64,000 bases of DNA from an uncultured Chloroflexota bacterium. GTDB lineage: Bacteria; Chloroflexota; Chloroflexia; Chloroflexales; Chloroflexaceae. The notes under the pieces are model-generated. The model was not told where the DNA came from and did not search any database. It saw only the letters and a list, made by a program, of their open reading frames with translations. A program made the position numbers and the translations under genes. Positions 1 through 42,900 of this stretch are shown here, in pieces; the stretch's first letter is position 1, and every line of letters begins with the position of its first letter. The stretch covers positions 1 through 64,000 of the forward strand of contig CAKZKA010000058.1 in NCBI GenBank assembly GCA_937120965.1, given 5' to 3'.

Positions 1-4349
<4,349 letters not shown>

Positions 4350-36330: not shown

Positions 36331-36807
36331 CATCGCCTCCTCGCCTGCGGTAACCAGAGAGTTCGTTGTATGTACCGCTGCGGAAGGCCAGAGGTTCCCA
36401 CCCCCGGTGCACAGCCCTTCCCGGGACGCTCAGCTCTCAGGGAGAGAGTTTTTTTTCAGAGCGCGTCAGGATGCCATCCTCCAGAAACTCTCCACCCAAA
36501 AGCAACGGAGGAAGGCCAGGGAGAGGGCAGCCCTCCCCCCCTTTCATGCCGGCGTTGTGCGGCGCAGCCGCATGGACGACTGAGGTGAAAATATGGGGAA
36601 ACCGGGTTTCCCCATCCCCCTGCCTGTGGGGGCGGCAAGCCCTCCCCACCGGGAGGGTTTGGGAGGGCTGCGCCCTCCCAAGAAAAACCCATGGTCATCT
36701 CGTCGTTGTGCGGCGCAGCCGCAAGGAGGACTGACCGGTCAACACCCGCTTCCCGCAGGGTCGCGTACAATACCGCCACGCATCGGAGAACTGCATATGA
36801 GGAAAGC
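36331..36807. repeat. 477-bp intergenic region with palindromes and a candidate promoter
   Basis: No gene is seen. Contents include a TTTTTTTT tract near 36449, a TGCGGC-GCA-GCCGCA hairpin near 36559, the 19-bp palindrome at 36595-36613 (central G), a GGGAGGGC-TGC-GCCCTCCC hairpin near 36663 and a second TGCGGC hairpin near 36708. A TACAAT motif (36766-36771) lies about 40 bp upstream of the kinase start and may be its -10; no -35 is evident. Confidence 0.65.
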
Positions 36808-38745
36808 ATGCGCATCTGTGAAGATCAGCGAAACGGCGAAGGCTGCGGCGCGATCAACCCTAACAACGCAACCGTCTGCGCCCGCTGCGGACGCTCGCTG
36901 CAATTCGCCGTGCAACTGCGCGACCCGGGTGACCGGATCGGCGCTTATGAAGTTGTGCGCGACCTGGGCCACGGCAGTTTCGGGGCCGTGTACGAGGCAG
37001 TGGATACCCGCAACCCGGAACGCCGGGTCGCCATCAAGGAAACATTCGAGGCGCCATCGGTGCGCGGTTTCCAGCGCGAGTTCGAGGCCCTCGCCAACCT
37101 GCGCCATCCCAACCTGCCCCGCTACTTCGAGATGTTTGAGGCTGATGGCTGCGGGTACCTGGTGATGGAGTTCGTGCCCGGCCAGAGCCTCGATGAGATC
37201 CTCGCCCGCCAGAAGGGTCCCCTCTCTGAACAACTGGTGGTGGCCTATGCAGAACAGCTCTGCGACTTGCTCAGCTACCTGCACAGCCAGCATCCGCCGA
37301 TCATCCATCGCGACATCAAGCCCCACAATGTCCGCGTGACGCCCGAGGGCCAGGTGAAACTGGTAGACTTCGGGCTGTTCAAACAGGGCGTGCAACGCAC
37401 CCGCAAAACGCTCCACGGCCTGGGCACACTGGAGTATATGCCACTGGAGCAGTTCGACTGGTCCGGCGGAACTGACCAGCGTAGCGACATCTACAGCCTG
37501 GGCGCGACACTGTACCATCTGCTGACCAACCGCTACCCCCTCAGCGCCCCGCGGCGCATGAGCAGTGTGCGCGACCCGCTGAAGCCGCCCCATAAGCTGA
37601 ACCGCCGCGTCTCGCCGCAGGTCTCACAGGCAATTATGCGGGCCATGGCGCGCTTCCCCCAGGAGCGGTACCCGAGCGCCGAGGCGTTTTGCCGCGATCT
37701 GCAGGGCCGGGCGCAGCGTTACATCAGTGGCGCGCGCATTGGCCGCGCGCTGCGCGGGCATGGCAGTTTCGTCCACGGGGTCGCCTGGAGCCCCGATGGA
37801 CGCACCGTGGTGAGTTGCAGCGCCGACCGCACCGTGCGCGTCTGGCGAGTGGCCGATGGGGCGCCACTCGCCTGCCTGGAGGGCCATGCCGACCGGGTGT
37901 TGAGCGTGGCCTGGAGTCCCGACGGTGAACTGATCGCCAGCGCCAGCGCCGACCGCACCGTGCGCCTGTGGCGCGTCCGCGAGTGGCAGGTCCTGCGTAT
38001 CCTCGATGCCCACGCCGAGGCCGTCCACGGGGTGGCCTGGAGCCCCGACGGCGACCTGATCGCCAGCGCCAGCGCCGACGGCGCGCTCCGCCTCTGGCAA
38101 ACCAGCGACGATGGGCCAGCGAACGAACTGCGCCCTGAGGCGCATGCCCGGCTCTACAGCGTTGGCTGGCGCCCCGATGGGCAGAGCCTGGCCGCGGGCT
38201 ATGGCGATGGGGTTGTGCGCCTCTGGCACCTCGGCGAACCGCCGACCCTCGACAACCTTCCCGGGCACACTGGCTACATCTACGCGGTGGCCTGGAGCCC
38301 CGACGGGCAGATCCTGGCCAGCGCCAGCGCCGACAATACGGTGCGCCTCTGGCGCCTGGCCAAGGGTCGCCTGGTCAACGAACTCCGCAAGCATCGCAAC
38401 TGGGCCGCCGACCTGGCCTGGAGCCCGATCGGCAAGGTGGCCGGCTTCGGCGAGGCCACTCGCCGCGAGCCGCTCTGGCTCTGGCGCGTGAGTGACGGTA
38501 GCCTCTGCACCACGCTCACCGGTCACCAGAATTATGTCTACACAGTGGCCTGGAGCCCCGATGGGCAGGCCCTGGCCAGCGCTGGCGCCGACTCGACCAT
38601 CCGCCTATGGCGCCACGACGGAATGCCCATCACGACCCTCACCGGCCACAGCGACTGGGTGCAGTGCGTGGCCTGGAGCCCCGATGGCCAGAACCTGGCC
38701 AGCGCCAGTCTCGATGGCACGGTGCTGCTCTGGAACCTGGAGTGA
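36808..38745 (+). CDS. Zinc-ribbon Ser/Thr protein kinase with eight WD40 repeats
   Basis: A 645-aa cytoplasmic signalling protein. The N-terminal four-Cys zinc ribbon (C-E-D...C-G-A-I-N-P...C-A-R-C-G) is followed by a Hanks-type kinase domain (about residues 46-310) with G-H-G-S-F-G-A-V, V-A-I-K, H-R-D-I-K-P-H-N and D-F-G, so it should be active. There is no membrane helix after the kinase; instead eight WD40 repeats follow, most reading V-A-W-S-P-D-G and ending in L-W. Repeat 6 is divergent. Repeats are close at DNA level, suggesting recent expansion. GAGGAAAGC precedes ATG 36808; the longer frame to 36691 runs through repeats. The substrate is unknown. Confidence 0.92.
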   Translation: MRICEDQRNGEGCGAINPNNATVCARCGRSLQFAVQLRDPGDRIGAYEVVRDLGHGSFGAVYEAVDTRNPERRVAIKETFEAPSVRGFQREFEALANLRHPNLPRYFEMFEADGCGYLVMEFVPGQSLDEILARQKGPLSEQLVVAYAEQLCDLLSYLHSQHPPIIHRDIKPHNVRVTPEGQVKLVDFGLFKQGVQRTRKTLHGLGTLEYMPLEQFDWSGGTDQRSDIYSLGATLYHLLTNRYPLSAPRRMSSVRDPLKPPHKLNRRVSPQVSQAIMRAMARFPQERYPSAEAFCRDLQGRAQRYISGARIGRALRGHGSFVHGVAWSPDGRTVVSCSADRTVRVWRVADGAPLACLEGHADRVLSVAWSPDGELIASASADRTVRLWRVREWQVLRILDAHAEAVHGVAWSPDGDLIASASADGALRLWQTSDDGPANELRPEAHARLYSVGWRPDGQSLAAGYGDGVVRLWHLGEPPTLDNLPGHTGYIYAVAWSPDGQILASASADNTVRLWRLAKGRLVNELRKHRNWAADLAWSPIGKVAGFGEATRREPLWLWRVSDGSLCTTLTGHQNYVYTVAWSPDGQALASAGADSTIRLWRHDGMPITTLTGHSDWVQCVAWSPDGQNLASASLDGTVLLWNLE

Positions 38746-39076: not shown

Positions 39077-39902
39077 TTCGCGGGGCTGGAGGGAAAGCCG
39101 GTTTCTCCACCGACTCCCACCTCCGCTCTCCCCACTTCTGCGCCTCTCCTCTCCCCACGCGCGCGACCTGACGTAACCGCATGCCCTGCATTCTCCGGGT
39201 TTTTGCCAGCAAATTGCCAGAAAGAAATCTTGCAAGTATTTACTTCCATACTTAGCATGGTATCCAACCACCCCGTATGATGCTTCATCAGAGTCGTTCA
39301 ATCACTTGTCTGCATCAGTGGAAGCACCCCAGGATACGGGTCATGCTTCGCTGTAGCAATGATCATGGCAATCTTTATAGTTTTCTGATCAATTATTCTT
39401 GTCCTGAACTTTCGTCCAGCGGCTGAAGTGAACATCGGGGAAGCCGGGTTTCCCCACCTGTGGTGAGCTTGTCGAACCGCACCCCTGCCTGCTGGAGCGC
39501 CAGCCGCTCCCAACGGCGGTTGGGAAATGGGGAAACCGGGTTTCCCCAACCCCCTCCCTGGTGGGAGGGTTGGGGCAAACCCATGGTCATCATGTCGTTG
39601 TGCAGCGCAGCCGCATGGACGGCTGAAGTGAACATCGGGGAAACCGGGTTTCCCCACCTGTGGTGAGCTTGTCGAACCGCACCCCTGCCCGGGGGAAGGC
39701 TCCGGGGCGTTCTGCCCCCTCCCGGCCCCCCCGCCGGGGGAAGCGCCCGGTTCCCTTCCCCAGCAGGGGAAGGCCAGGCGGAGTGTAACAATCGTGACGA
39801 TGGATCAATGAGAAGGGTTTGTGCGCCCACTGTGCCCCTGGCAATGGTCGTGACCCTGGTGGGCGGCGCCTCCCTTCCCAGAACGGCAAGAAGGGGTCGT
39901 GG
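39077..39902. repeat. 826-bp intergenic region: A/T-rich island plus palindromes
   Basis: No gene is supported. Roughly 39190-39420 is much more A/T-rich than its surroundings (for example GATCAATTATTCTTG) and may be a remnant of foreign DNA. The rest holds 19-bp palindromes at 39437-39455 (one mismatch), 39529-39547 and 39637-39655 (central G), and a nearly duplicated segment around TGAAGTGAACATCGGGGAA and TGAGCTTGTCGAACCGCACC at about 39424 and 39624. Confidence 0.6.
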
Positions 39903-42257
39903 ATGACTGACTCAGACCAGATGAGCCAAGCCTTCCCATCGGAATCCGAGGACGACCCGCTCCCCTCCCCCGAGACGAGCACGCCTGACGCCGACCAGAG
40001 GAGCCAGGCCATTCCACCGGTGTCCGACGACGACCCGCGCGTGCAGCGGCTGCTGGCAGCCTATGCCCCGGGGCTGATCGAGCACCTGCGGGCGCATCTT
40101 GATGATCTCTGGTCAGGCGACCTGGCTGTACAGGTGGCTCCGGCGATCCGCGCTGAAGCAGACGCCAATCGTTCCCTCGATGTCGTTACCCCCGAGCCGC
40201 CTCTGGCGCTCCGCCGATCCGTCTCCGAGCGAGCGACGATCTTCTGCTTGCAGACTGGCCTGACGCGCCCCGCGCTGGTGCTGCTGCTCGAGTATGCGCC
40301 GCGTATCAAGTCGGCGCTCAAACGGAGCAAGTATGGGCCCTACCTGAGCGCGGAAGACCTGGAGGATCTGGCCCAGGATACCATCGTGCGCGCGGTGGAA
40401 CGCGGCGCGCAGTACCGCCCCGAACTCAGCGGTCTCGGTAGCTGGCTCAATATGCTGGCCGGTTTCGCTATGCTCGACCTGATCCGTGAGCGCAGTGCCT
40501 TGAGCCAGGCCGGGCGCGAGCGGCTCGCCGCAGAACAGTTGCGGGAACTCGGCGAGGGCACGCCGGAGTTCGATGAGCAGATGCGCGCGCGCCTCCAGCA
40601 GGCTGTGCGTGCGTTGTCCCCCGGTCTGGCATTGTACATCCAGCGCCACTTTTTCGAGGGTTGGAGCGACGCCGAGATTCAGCACAGGATGAACGTCAAG
40701 GCTGGAACTCTGCGGGTCTGGAAAAAGCGCGCCCTGGATAAGCTGCGGGCTATTCTTGACAGTTCACTGGGGCTTGTGCTGGTGCTACTGATCGCTACAG
40801 TCGGGCCGGTAGTCGCACACCCGTCGTTCGAGGCGCCGGGTGTTGGTGCCGTTGCACAGGCTCCCGGTCTCACCCCCAGCACAACACCCGCGCCAGTGCT
40901 TGCGGAAGCACCCCCGCCACCGATCGCTACGGCTACGGCTGCACCGCTTCCGGCCACTCCCACGCCTCCCCCGCTCGCAGCGGAGCCAGACAGTCCGACC
41001 TCCAGCCCTGTACCCACAGAGGCCCTGGCTACGCCGTCCGCAACGGCAACGCCTGCCGCGAGTCTGACTCCGCTGGCAACCGCGACGCTGCCAACACTCC
41101 CCTCACCGACGATAGCGCCGCCACGCAGCGAACGTCCTCTGCCACCTACTGCAACGGCTCGTCCGGAGTTACAACTGTCAATCACCCCGATCCGCGCGCC
41201 CGCGCCGGTGCTGGAAGAAATCCCGGCTGCGCCGACAGCAGCGGCCGAGCCGACGGCTGCGCCCGAACCCGAAATGACCGCCACGGCCAGCGCCACCCCC
41301 TCCCCTACCGCCACCGCCACGGCCAGCGCCACGCCCCTCCCCACCGCCACCGCCACGGCCAGCGTCACGCCGACACCGGAGGTGTGCCAGGAGGAAGCGG
41401 CGGCGATCAGCGGCGCCGAGATGGGCTATCGCGCCGAGCAGACCATCGTCATTCCCGAGTCGCGCTGGTCAACGGTGCAGGTCGTGGGGCGCTTCGCCGA
41501 CAGGGCGTGCACAGTGCCGGAACTGGTCCGTTTCCGCTTTGCCGATGGGACGGAGGTAGTGCGACACACACCGGCCCGGGTGAACGACTCTGGCTATGTC
41601 TTTGAGGCGCCGGGTCGTCCGGGCCTGGTCAGCGTTTATGTGCGCGAGGCGCGGGGCGCCGCTACCGCGCGCGCCATCGTGATCACTACGGGCAGCGTGG
41701 CGAATGAAGGAGTTTGTGGCGTTCTCAGCACCCCCCTCGCGGAGGTGTATAATGGAGCAGTGGCAATAGATGTACCCCTGCCCACCGCACTGGCACAACC
41801 CGGCGCCCTGCGGGTGCGCGGCGCCTTCTTTGCCACCACGCAGGACAGGCCGGCGCTCATCTTTGGCGCTGAGGCAGGCGGCGTGGTGATCCATACACAA
41901 ACGGGGCCAGACGCCGGCCCGACCCTGTTCATTGAGGAGGTGACGCTCGCCAATGTGCCGGCCGGCACGGATCGCGTTCGGATCTGGTTCGCGTCGCCGC
42001 ATTCCGACAACAACACCGGCATCTTCGTGAGCGCATCCGTAGCCTACCCCTGTCCACCGGCCAGTCCGCTCGCTCCTGCCTCCCCCACCGGGGCGGAGGG
42101 CGCGACCCTGGCCGGACCGATACGTTTGTTCTACGTCATGCGGAGGAGGAGGGCCAGCCACAACACCTGTATGCGCTGCCCACGCCCAGTCGCCAGTGAA
42201 GCCGGGAACTCCCCCTTCCCACCCGGCCAGGCGCATTCTATGCCGCGGGGAGCATAG
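39903..42257 (+). CDS. Membrane-tethered ECF-like sigma factor fused to an extracytoplasmic beta domain
   Basis: A 784-aa fusion. An acidic N-terminal tail leads to sigma region 2 (L-S-A-E-D-L-E-D-L-A-Q-D-T..., about residues 146-200) and region 4 with a helix-turn-helix (W-S-D-A-E-I-Q-H-R-M-N-V-K-A-G-T-L, about 228-285). A single membrane helix follows at once (L-G-L-V-L-V-L-L-I-A-T-V-G-P-V-V-A, about 287-305), then some 210 residues rich in Pro/Thr/Ala, then a beta-rich domain of about 250 residues containing three Cys. The sigma domain would lie inside and the beta domain outside. This suggests a sigma factor held at the membrane and released or switched by an outside signal. No separate anti-sigma gene is seen. 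ATG 39903 has AAGGGG upstream. Confidence 0.8.
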   Translation: MTDSDQMSQAFPSESEDDPLPSPETSTPDADQRSQAIPPVSDDDPRVQRLLAAYAPGLIEHLRAHLDDLWSGDLAVQVAPAIRAEADANRSLDVVTPEPPLALRRSVSERATIFCLQTGLTRPALVLLLEYAPRIKSALKRSKYGPYLSAEDLEDLAQDTIVRAVERGAQYRPELSGLGSWLNMLAGFAMLDLIRERSALSQAGRERLAAEQLRELGEGTPEFDEQMRARLQQAVRALSPGLALYIQRHFFEGWSDAEIQHRMNVKAGTLRVWKKRALDKLRAILDSSLGLVLVLLIATVGPVVAHPSFEAPGVGAVAQAPGLTPSTTPAPVLAEAPPPPIATATAAPLPATPTPPPLAAEPDSPTSSPVPTEALATPSATATPAASLTPLATATLPTLPSPTIAPPRSERPLPPTATARPELQLSITPIRAPAPVLEEIPAAPTAAAEPTAAPEPEMTATASATPSPTATATASATPLPTATATASVTPTPEVCQEEAAAISGAEMGYRAEQTIVIPESRWSTVQVVGRFADRACTVPELVRFRFADGTEVVRHTPARVNDSGYVFEAPGRPGLVSVYVREARGAATARAIVITTGSVANEGVCGVLSTPLAEVYNGAVAIDVPLPTALAQPGALRVRGAFFATTQDRPALIFGAEAGGVVIHTQTGPDAGPTLFIEEVTLANVPAGTDRVRIWFASPHSDNNTGIFVSASVAYPCPPASPLAPASPTGAEGATLAGPIRLFYVMRRRRASHNTCMRCPRPVASEAGNSPFPPGQAHSMPRGA

Positions 42258-42310: not shown

Positions 42311-42559
42311 ATGGAGCAGACTTCCTGGGAGCGAAGCGCAGAAGCGCTCTTGCTTCTGTACTTCACCAGAGAGGAGATCGAACGCTGCACCCCCAACGAG
42401 CGCCGGCTGCTTGCTGTGATGCAGTTCATCGATCTCCCCGATGACGAGACTCCGGACGACCCTGAGCTTGAGCGGCGGCGGCGGCGGCTGGTTGCACGGC
42501 TTGCCGCGCTGCCGCCAGCCCATTGGTCCGACACCCCGGACGAGGCTTCATCCCTTTAA
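42311..42559 (+). CDS. Small protein of unknown function (82 aa)
   Basis: A short frame 53 bp after the membrane sigma factor gene and in the same direction. The sequence is mostly helical and charged, with an R-E-E-I-E-R-C-T motif and an E-L-E-R-R-R-R-R-L-V-A-R-L segment. It has no membrane helix or signal. GAGGA lies 10 bp upstream, and codon third positions are GC-rich as in neighbouring genes. If cotranscribed it could be a regulator or partner of the sigma protein, but no homology was recognised. Confidence 0.5.
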   Translation: MEQTSWERSAEALLLLYFTREEIERCTPNERRLLAVMQFIDLPDDETPDDPELERRRRRLVARLAALPPAHWSDTPDEASSL

Positions 42560-42667
42560 CCCCCCCGCCCCGGCATCTCGTCAGTCACCTCCTGGTCCTC
42601 GCACCTCCTACCCCCGGTCGTTTACCCCTCAGGGCCACCGCATGGTCACGCTGCTCATATTGACCAT

Positions 42668-42686
42668 GGGGAAACCGGGTTTCCCC
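42668..42686. repeat. 19-bp palindrome, central G
   Basis: A perfect GGGGAAACC-G-GGTTTCCCC, lying 13 bp before MITE copy 5. Confidence 0.85.
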
Positions 42687-42689
42687 GTG

Positions 42690-42699
42690 CCTCTCCCTG
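42690..42699 (+). repeat. 10-bp target-site duplication, left (MITE copy 5)
   Basis: CCTCTCCCTG abuts the element and recurs exactly at 42901-42910. Confidence 0.85.
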
Positions 42700-42900
42700 T
42701 TTAAGGGCGGACAGAACATCCGGGCTAACGTGGCGTATACCGCATTGGAACGCCCCCGCGCATGGCTCTGATCTCCCCGCTTCGACAGGCTCAGCGCAGG
42801 CGCTCCAGCGAAGCTGGAGCGGGGGAGGGGGCGGGAGCCAACCAGCGCATCCCAACGCCATACCGCCCGTCGGCGCTCATACGTTCTGTCCGCTCTTAAA
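42700..42900 (+). mobile_element. 201-bp MITE-like element, copy 5
   Basis: Exactly 201 bp, TTTAAGGGCGGACAGAAC to GTTCTGTCCGCTCTTAAA, with well-kept terminal inverted repeats. It is flanked by the exact 10-bp direct repeat CCTCTCCCTG. With copies 2 and 6 it defines the element ends. Confidence 0.92.

Follow-up and report, generated by a model that had tools for sequence, protein, structure and literature searches.

ECF signalling mostly requires two or more proteins, among them a sigma factor and an anti-sigma factor in the membrane. The ECF52 protein SCO4117 of Streptomyces coelicolor instead combines the sigma factor, a zinc finger, a transmembrane (TM) segment, a proline-rich region and a carbohydrate-binding domain (PMC8999054, PMC5826349). 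Proteolytic release has been proposed for ECF52, and the group is described as exclusive to Actinobacteria (PMC5826349, PMC8999054). IutY of Pseudomonas putida (ECF243) was shown experimentally to be released by Prc and then RseP (reviewed in PMC8999054), and truncated IutY is active (PMC8999054, PMC5826349). In ECF48 and ECF53, the sigma factor has a C-terminal extension that bears one or two TM helices (PMC8999054). Signal peptidases also cut the anti-sigma factors RsiV and RsiP at site 1, after which the S2P RasP acts, and the RsiP variant S84A is cut constitutively (PMC8844934).

By computation alone, we analysed a window of 64,000 nucleotides (the whole stretch of DNA under study) from an uncultured bacterium of the Chloroflexales. 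One of its genes encodes an ECF sigma factor that continues into a membrane helix and an exported part. The protein resembles ECF52 in that the sigma factor, the TM helix, a proline-rich extracytoplasmic region directly after this helix and a beta-type exported domain occur in one chain. However, a zinc-finger anti-sigma-like domain separates the sigma4 and TM segments of ECF52, whereas in the window protein sigma4 is joined directly to the TM helix, and we found no Pfam match to a zinc-finger domain at E up to 1. Two further differences are that we found no catalogued binding module in the ectodomain of the window protein, where ECF52 has a carbohydrate-binding module, and that the window protein occurs in Chloroflexales, with a small downstream partner gene that is conserved.

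The likeness to IutY lies in an ECF sigma factor that is joined via a TM segment to an exported part. By contrast, the membrane anti-sigma factor that IutY carries is of the FecR type, and IutY is part of an iron cell-surface signalling system; the window protein has no Pfam match to a FecR-like anti-sigma domain at E up to 1. A TM segment in a C-terminal extension is shared with ECF48 and ECF53 (the window protein has one), but the ZAS-type zinc-finger domain in these fusions is missing here. There is also a possible likeness to the RsiV/sigmaV and RsiP/sigmaP systems of Bacillus, in which signal peptidase cuts site 1 and S2P follows (PMC8844934). In these systems, however, the anti-sigma factor is tethered and cleaved, whereas in the window system this would happen to the sigma factor itself.

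As neither the zinc-finger nor the FecR domain was found in it, the window protein is placed outside ECF52 and ECF243. It is best filed as a membrane-fused ECF type that is set apart by its domain content, its phylum and its partner gene. The general design of a sigma-membrane fusion is already known in other phyla and, given IutY and ECF52, it is less novel than a sequence-only reading of this locus had implied. The version in the window and its partner nevertheless appear to be new.

Domain structure of the fused protein

The sequence-only reading had proposed that sigma regions 2 and 4, a membrane helix, a stalk and an exported beta domain are encoded in one chain. This is borne out by the open frame, Pfam and NCBIfam matches, hydropathy and AlphaFold modelling (Table 1). 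The frame runs from ATG 39903 to TAG 42255-42257 and comprises 784 codons with zero internal stops in the ORF translation.

Table 1. Positions of the sigma gene, its parts and its flanking elements in the window
Feature	Position	Strand	Evidence
Conserved non-coding block GTGTAACAATCGTGACGATGG, inverted repeat ATCGT-G-ACGAT	39783..39803	+	Congener alignment
Membrane-tethered ECF sigma factor, whole gene, 784 aa	39903..42257	+	Open frame, Pfam, NCBIfam, homologues
N-terminal extension, ~122 aa, ahead of sigma2	39903..40268	+	Comparison with G027 homologue
Sigma-70 region 2, aa 129-198	40287..40496	+	Pfam PF04542 2.6e-7, above cut-off; also in genome scan
Sigma-70 region 4, aa 229-283	40587..40751	+	Pfam PF08281/PF04545 slightly below cut-off; TIGR02937
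Single membrane helix, aa 287-305, ends GPVVA/HP (slash, putative cleavage site)	40761..40817	+	Hydropathy; A305 invariance
Pro/Ala/Thr-rich exported stalk, aa 306-494, 36-bp tandem repeats at end	40818..41384	+	Composition; repeat analysis
Exported all-beta domain, aa 495-719, two tandem beta-sandwiches predicted	41385..42059	+	AlphaFold, Foldseek, alignment A5
C-terminal tail, aa 720-784, and stop codon	42060..42257	+	Ka/Ks, weak constraint
Conserved partner gene, 82 aa, candidate cytoplasmic regulator or anti-sigma factor	42311..42559	+	Co-occurrence, Ka/Ks

The Pfam match of sigma70_r4_2 to region 4 spans aa 229-281; it is slightly below the cut-off in the window protein but above it in the homologue L004. 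The NCBIfam model sigma70-ECF (TIGR02937) covers aa 130-283 at 1.3e-15, above its cut-off, and spans both regions. In addition, a family profile compared with solved structures matched ECF SigE chains over sigma2-sigma4 at ~1e-14. Given these two kinds of match, the sigma annotation is solid. Neither Pfam nor NCBIfam gave a match to sigma regions 1.1 and 3 in the window protein. The predicted domain content, with regions 2 and 4 present and regions 1.1 and 3 absent, is that of an ECF sigma factor (sigma-70 group 4). The cytoplasmic part contains a single Cys in total.

The N-terminal extension of the homologue in genome G027 (L005/L036) gives a hint about the origin of this part. Its first 144 residues contain a degenerate extra sigma2 before the genuine sigma2 (profile E 1.3e-6), which scores 25 bits versus 10 bits for the best of 2000 shuffles, and perhaps also a third sigma2 copy. 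The extension of the window protein, taken alone, has a sigma2 score that is not above those of shuffles, and the match of a combined extension profile is not independent, since the G027 sequence is included in it. A derivation of the window extension from a duplicated sigma2 is only suggested.

The membrane helix predicted earlier withstood closer inspection. Residues 287-305 form one strong hydrophobic segment (Kyte-Doolittle 2.28) that starts ~4 residues past sigma4, and the segment is kept at the identical position in all homologues, with values of 2.13-2.38. The calls of the helix and of its topology are based on hydropathy, not on a dedicated predictor. Since the basic sequence KKRALDKLR precedes the helix and Lys/Arg are nearly absent from the region that follows, we predict an N-in/C-out topology. 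The stalk was confirmed to be proline-rich (Pro 25%, Ala 24% and Thr 18% over aa 307-492), but it measures ~190 residues and not the ~210 first claimed. We also considered an internal start at ATG 40689, from which the exported part alone would be made with a plausible signal peptide. It was rejected, as the codon is CTG and TTC in congeners and thus not conserved.

The AlphaFold model of the ectodomain has 17 strands and no helix (pLDDT 88.1, pTM 0.86), and Cys residues are located near both ends of the domain. Foldseek matches include CBM22 tandems, CUB pairs and PNGases, but these are generic two-sandwich matches with a global TM of ~0.3. No Pfam family matches the ectodomain in the window protein, and no relatives by sequence were found in the PDB. 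In alignment A5 (ten members), the domain also appears in several large proteins that are secreted or located at the surface and come from the same bacterial family; one of them is RHS-like. Judging by its presence in such unrelated proteins, the ectodomain is a surface module that is reused in different proteins and not a dedicated sensor, and it could be adhesin-like. Binding of a sugar, a peptide or a protein is plausible. The sequence-only reading had described sigma factor, anchor and receptor as merged in one protein. The fusion is conserved, but the sensor role does not follow for a domain that is also found in unrelated surface proteins.

We compared the window with congeners by a simple counting method applied to three sequences. 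The sigma part had Ka/Ks values of 0.22-0.29, the ectodomain had 0.32-0.35 and the C-terminal tail had 0.65-0.72. The tail is therefore the sole weakly constrained part. The values indicate that the sigma part and the ectodomain are each under purifying selection.

The downstream partner gene and the upstream region

The window had been read as having no anti-sigma gene adjacent to the sigma gene. This holds for the known anti-sigma families, but a conserved gene of 82 codons begins 53 bases past the sigma stop codon and adjoins the tethered sigma gene in 5/5 homologues. The sole other convincing match among 158 genomes of the class is in G069, where the gene directly follows a soluble sister sigma factor that has no TM segment anywhere. 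Weak partner-like matches in G105 and G009 were judged by their gene context to be unrelated. The partner has a Ka/Ks of 0.13-0.21, a stronger constraint than that on the sigma part or the ectodomain, and its first 40 residues are nearly invariant (AEALLLLYFTxEEhxxxTPxExRLLA).

None of the five members has a Pfam anti-sigma match at E up to 5, and searches with NCBIfam and with Pfam families in general gave no match either. An AlphaFold model suggests four helices, but its pTM of 0.38 is too poor for fold comparison. Since the partner pairs with tethered and soluble sigma factors alike, its likely target is the sigma domains, which points to an action on these domains and not on the membrane part. 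That it is an anti-sigma factor is the most economical guess, and the partner, although outside the known families, is the most promising candidate for a regulatory protein or an anti-sigma factor.

This raises the question of whether the 82-aa protein could itself be the control, a cytoplasmic anti-sigma factor of a new type in direct contact with the sigma domains, while the membrane part would do no more than localise the sigma factor. We regard this as a real but tentative alternative. It would fit the adjacency to the tethered sigma gene in every homologue, the occurrence beside the G069 sister sigma, which has no membrane part, the low Ka/Ks and the four predicted helices. However, the protein resembles no known anti-sigma family, the structure model is unreliable, and the role is a candidate one for which activator or chaperone would be equally possible.

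A separate observation concerns the arrangement in G069 (L116:826-2937). There, the genes of the soluble sister sigma and the partner adjoin another gene, for a secreted protein with a Pro/Thr stalk. It looks as though the components joined in the window protein were encoded individually in G069.

Upstream, the block GTGTAACAATCGTGACGATGG lies ~100 bases ahead of the sigma start codon and is invariant in three congeners. Its exact match occurs once per genome and always at the sigma gene; within the window, there is one match versus 0.01 expected. Congeners G001 and G002, which do not have the sigma gene, do not have an exact match either. The block is a candidate for the sigma gene's own promoter or operator, as which it may function. 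We also considered whether it might define a regulon. As the exact match is unique in the genome and found at the sigma gene only, no regulon can be read from this motif.

Other elements of the neighbourhood are as follows. A second non-coding block at 39202-39340 (TTTGCCAGCAAATTGCCAG and onward), ~600 bases upstream of the sigma gene, is kept in three congeners and contains the inverted repeat TTTGC-CA-GCAAA and a repeated TTGCCAG. Repeated sequence with GGGGAAACCGGGTTTCCCC-like palindromes and many spurious ORFs is found at 39420-39780, 42660-42700 and other intergenic sites. A gene for a Ser/Thr kinase with WD40 repeats (36691-38745) is located directly upstream on the same strand as the sigma gene; its synteny is retained in congeners G003 and G004, and the G016 contig has no match. 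It is possible that the kinase feeds into the sigma factor, or that its position is mere coincidence. Elsewhere in the window, positions 93-4349 encode a large protein in which five near-identical acyl-carrier-like segments stand in tandem before ketoreductase/dehydratase-like sequence; this protein resembles a PUFA/polyketide synthase subunit.

Control of the tethered sigma factor

The explanation towards which we lean is that the tethered ECF sigma factor is its own signal transducer, inactive while anchored and released by a cut at site 1 and then by S2P, with the partner possibly helping. The sigma2-sigma4 unit would be cytoplasmic, one helix would span the membrane, and a stiff stalk would present the double beta-sandwich outside. 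The anchored sigma factor would most likely be inactive, possibly aided by the 82-aa partner, because sigma4 is within ~4 residues of the bilayer, and this proximity should hinder binding to the polymerase flap and to -35 DNA. A signal at the ectodomain or the stalk would expose a signal-peptidase-like site at the outer helix end (A305). Cleavage at this site would be followed by a cut of the site-2 protease within the helix, and the freed sigma factor would then bind RNA polymerase. The partner would provide a cytoplasmic control on the sigma factor.

The proposed first cut relates to the end of the helix, whose final residue, A305, is invariant in 5/5 homologues. Signal-peptidase sites obey a -3/-1 rule, which ends resembling VxA or AxA satisfy. 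The five homologues have signal-peptidase-I-like -3/-1 sites at this position (VVA/H, VVA/Q, AIA/Q, VIA/K and SVA/L), and Pro or Gly often sits directly before the site. The site could be partly compositional, because small residues are common at the ends of TM segments. As for the second cut, homologues of S2P-family proteases are encoded in the genome and also in all 14 control genomes, and they are not linked to the sigma gene; nearly all prokaryotes have such homologues. With its single TM helix, the conserved A305 site and the S2P homologues in the genome, the window protein is a candidate substrate for regulated intramembrane proteolysis, in which a cut at site 1 outside is followed by an S2P cut at site 2.

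A good site at the helix end may also be cut constitutively, as in RsiP S84A, and then there would be no regulated first step. The cut at A305 would shed the ectodomain and leave a tail-anchored sigma factor that is controlled mainly by the partner, and the fusion would serve to co-produce two products. We consider this unlikely, even though several observations are in line with it: the -3/-1-compatible helix ends of 5/5 homologues, often with Pro or Gly before them, the occurrence of this type of ectodomain in unrelated secreted proteins, a tail-anchored sigma factor without an ectodomain in a relative (G035), and a partner that is better conserved than the sigma part or the ectodomain. Constitutive shedding would give little reason for the fusion of sigma factor and ectodomain to persist across genera, and the internal start for a secreted part is not conserved.

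It is also rather improbable that the sigma factor works while anchored, in a CadC/ToxR-like manner, such that polymerase is recruited to a membrane-located promoter and the ectodomain signals by conformation. With only ~4 residues between sigma4 and the bilayer, the polymerase beta-flap and -35 DNA would have scant room, and for the membrane-tethered ECF factors known so far, release has been either proposed or demonstrated (PMC8999054). On the other side, the chain is without an anti-sigma domain, the tethered sigma family has no conserved protease neighbour, and the sister sigma of G069, a soluble protein, presumably needs no release to be active. By inference and precedent, we favour release of the sigma factor over its activity at the membrane.

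Conservation and sigma tethering in the phylum

A search for the same architecture yielded a full-length homologue from a different genus (Chloroflexi bacterium OHK40, G016:C289). It is encoded in one open frame with 40% identity and keeps the order of sigma, TM helix, stalk and ectodomain, so the fusion is conserved. Congeners G003 and G004 have both halves, each divided across contigs at the repetitive stalk. The G027 homologue has the sigma part, the TM helix and the stalk, plus the beginning of the ectodomain. The open frame passes the junction between sigma part and TM helix without a stop in five genomes; the genomes compared are MAGs, and the homologues are few (n=5).

These observations bear on whether the fused gene is real. 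A frameshift or assembly artefact is ruled out by the open frame, the full-length homologue in G016 and purifying selection. Although sigma4 is under the Pfam cut-off in the window copy and congeners G001 and G002 are without the gene, a non-functional fusion, whether by frameshift, by assembly error or by joining of a decayed sigma gene to a surface protein, is extremely improbable given that the part order is identical in an independent genus, that two congeners have both halves, that Ka/Ks is far below 1 on either side of the junction and that the junction is read through in five genomes.

In a profile search, the tethered sigma family was detected in only 5 of 158 genomes of the class (400-458 bits). 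The next match is the soluble sister sigma in G069 (147 bits), followed by generic sigma factors (~77 bits or less), and a wider sample of 400 genomes of the phylum contained no further members. Of the 14 sigma-70 ORFs that a census of the retrieved pieces of the window's own genome revealed, the window gene alone has a TM segment after sigma4.

Two other kinds of tethered sigma factor were encountered. In G005 (L045:6228-7565) and G011 (L072:349-2109), an ECF sigma factor is followed by a TM segment, DUF5667 (PF18915) and a Pro/Thr-rich exported region. These proteins are like the window protein in that the TM segment comes a few residues after sigma4 and is followed by a Pro/Thr-rich exported region. 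However, their first exported domain is DUF5667 and their sigma part is only distantly related, so that they represent a separate architecture. The other kind, in G035:C295 (L010), is a 240-aa ECF-like sigma factor with one C-terminal TM segment (RALLTSYLGVIAILLGLLCGVKALAG), which is tail-anchored and without an exported domain. The loci examined contain 63 distinct sigma ORFs, and 8 of these have a TM segment within 60 residues past sigma4, including the five family members; this sample is non-random, because the loci were chosen by similarity to the tethered sigma family.

The members of the tethered family combine sigma factor, anchor and exported domain in one chain without a fused anti-sigma domain. 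The ECF papers cited here do not name their host phylum as a source of fusions of this sort (PMC8999054, PMC5826349). A broader reading, which we put forward as a conjecture, is that they constitute a Chloroflexales module in which the sigma factor is its own sensor, sigma4 is silenced because it is pinned to the bilayer, signal peptidase and S2P bring about release, a so far undescribed family of tiny cytoplasmic partners from the adjacent gene sets the activity, and tethering is recurrent in the phylum. If this is true, then the family, together with the sigma-TM-DUF5667 proteins and the tail-anchored sigma factors, would make sigma tethering a recurrent strategy of the phylum. A signal from outside could reach gene expression through a single protein, and the testable idea is raised that membrane tethering of sigma4 acts as an off-switch. 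The locus also offers a compact one-chain signalling part and, with it, a new family of small proteins, which may regulate sigma factors in a way of their own.
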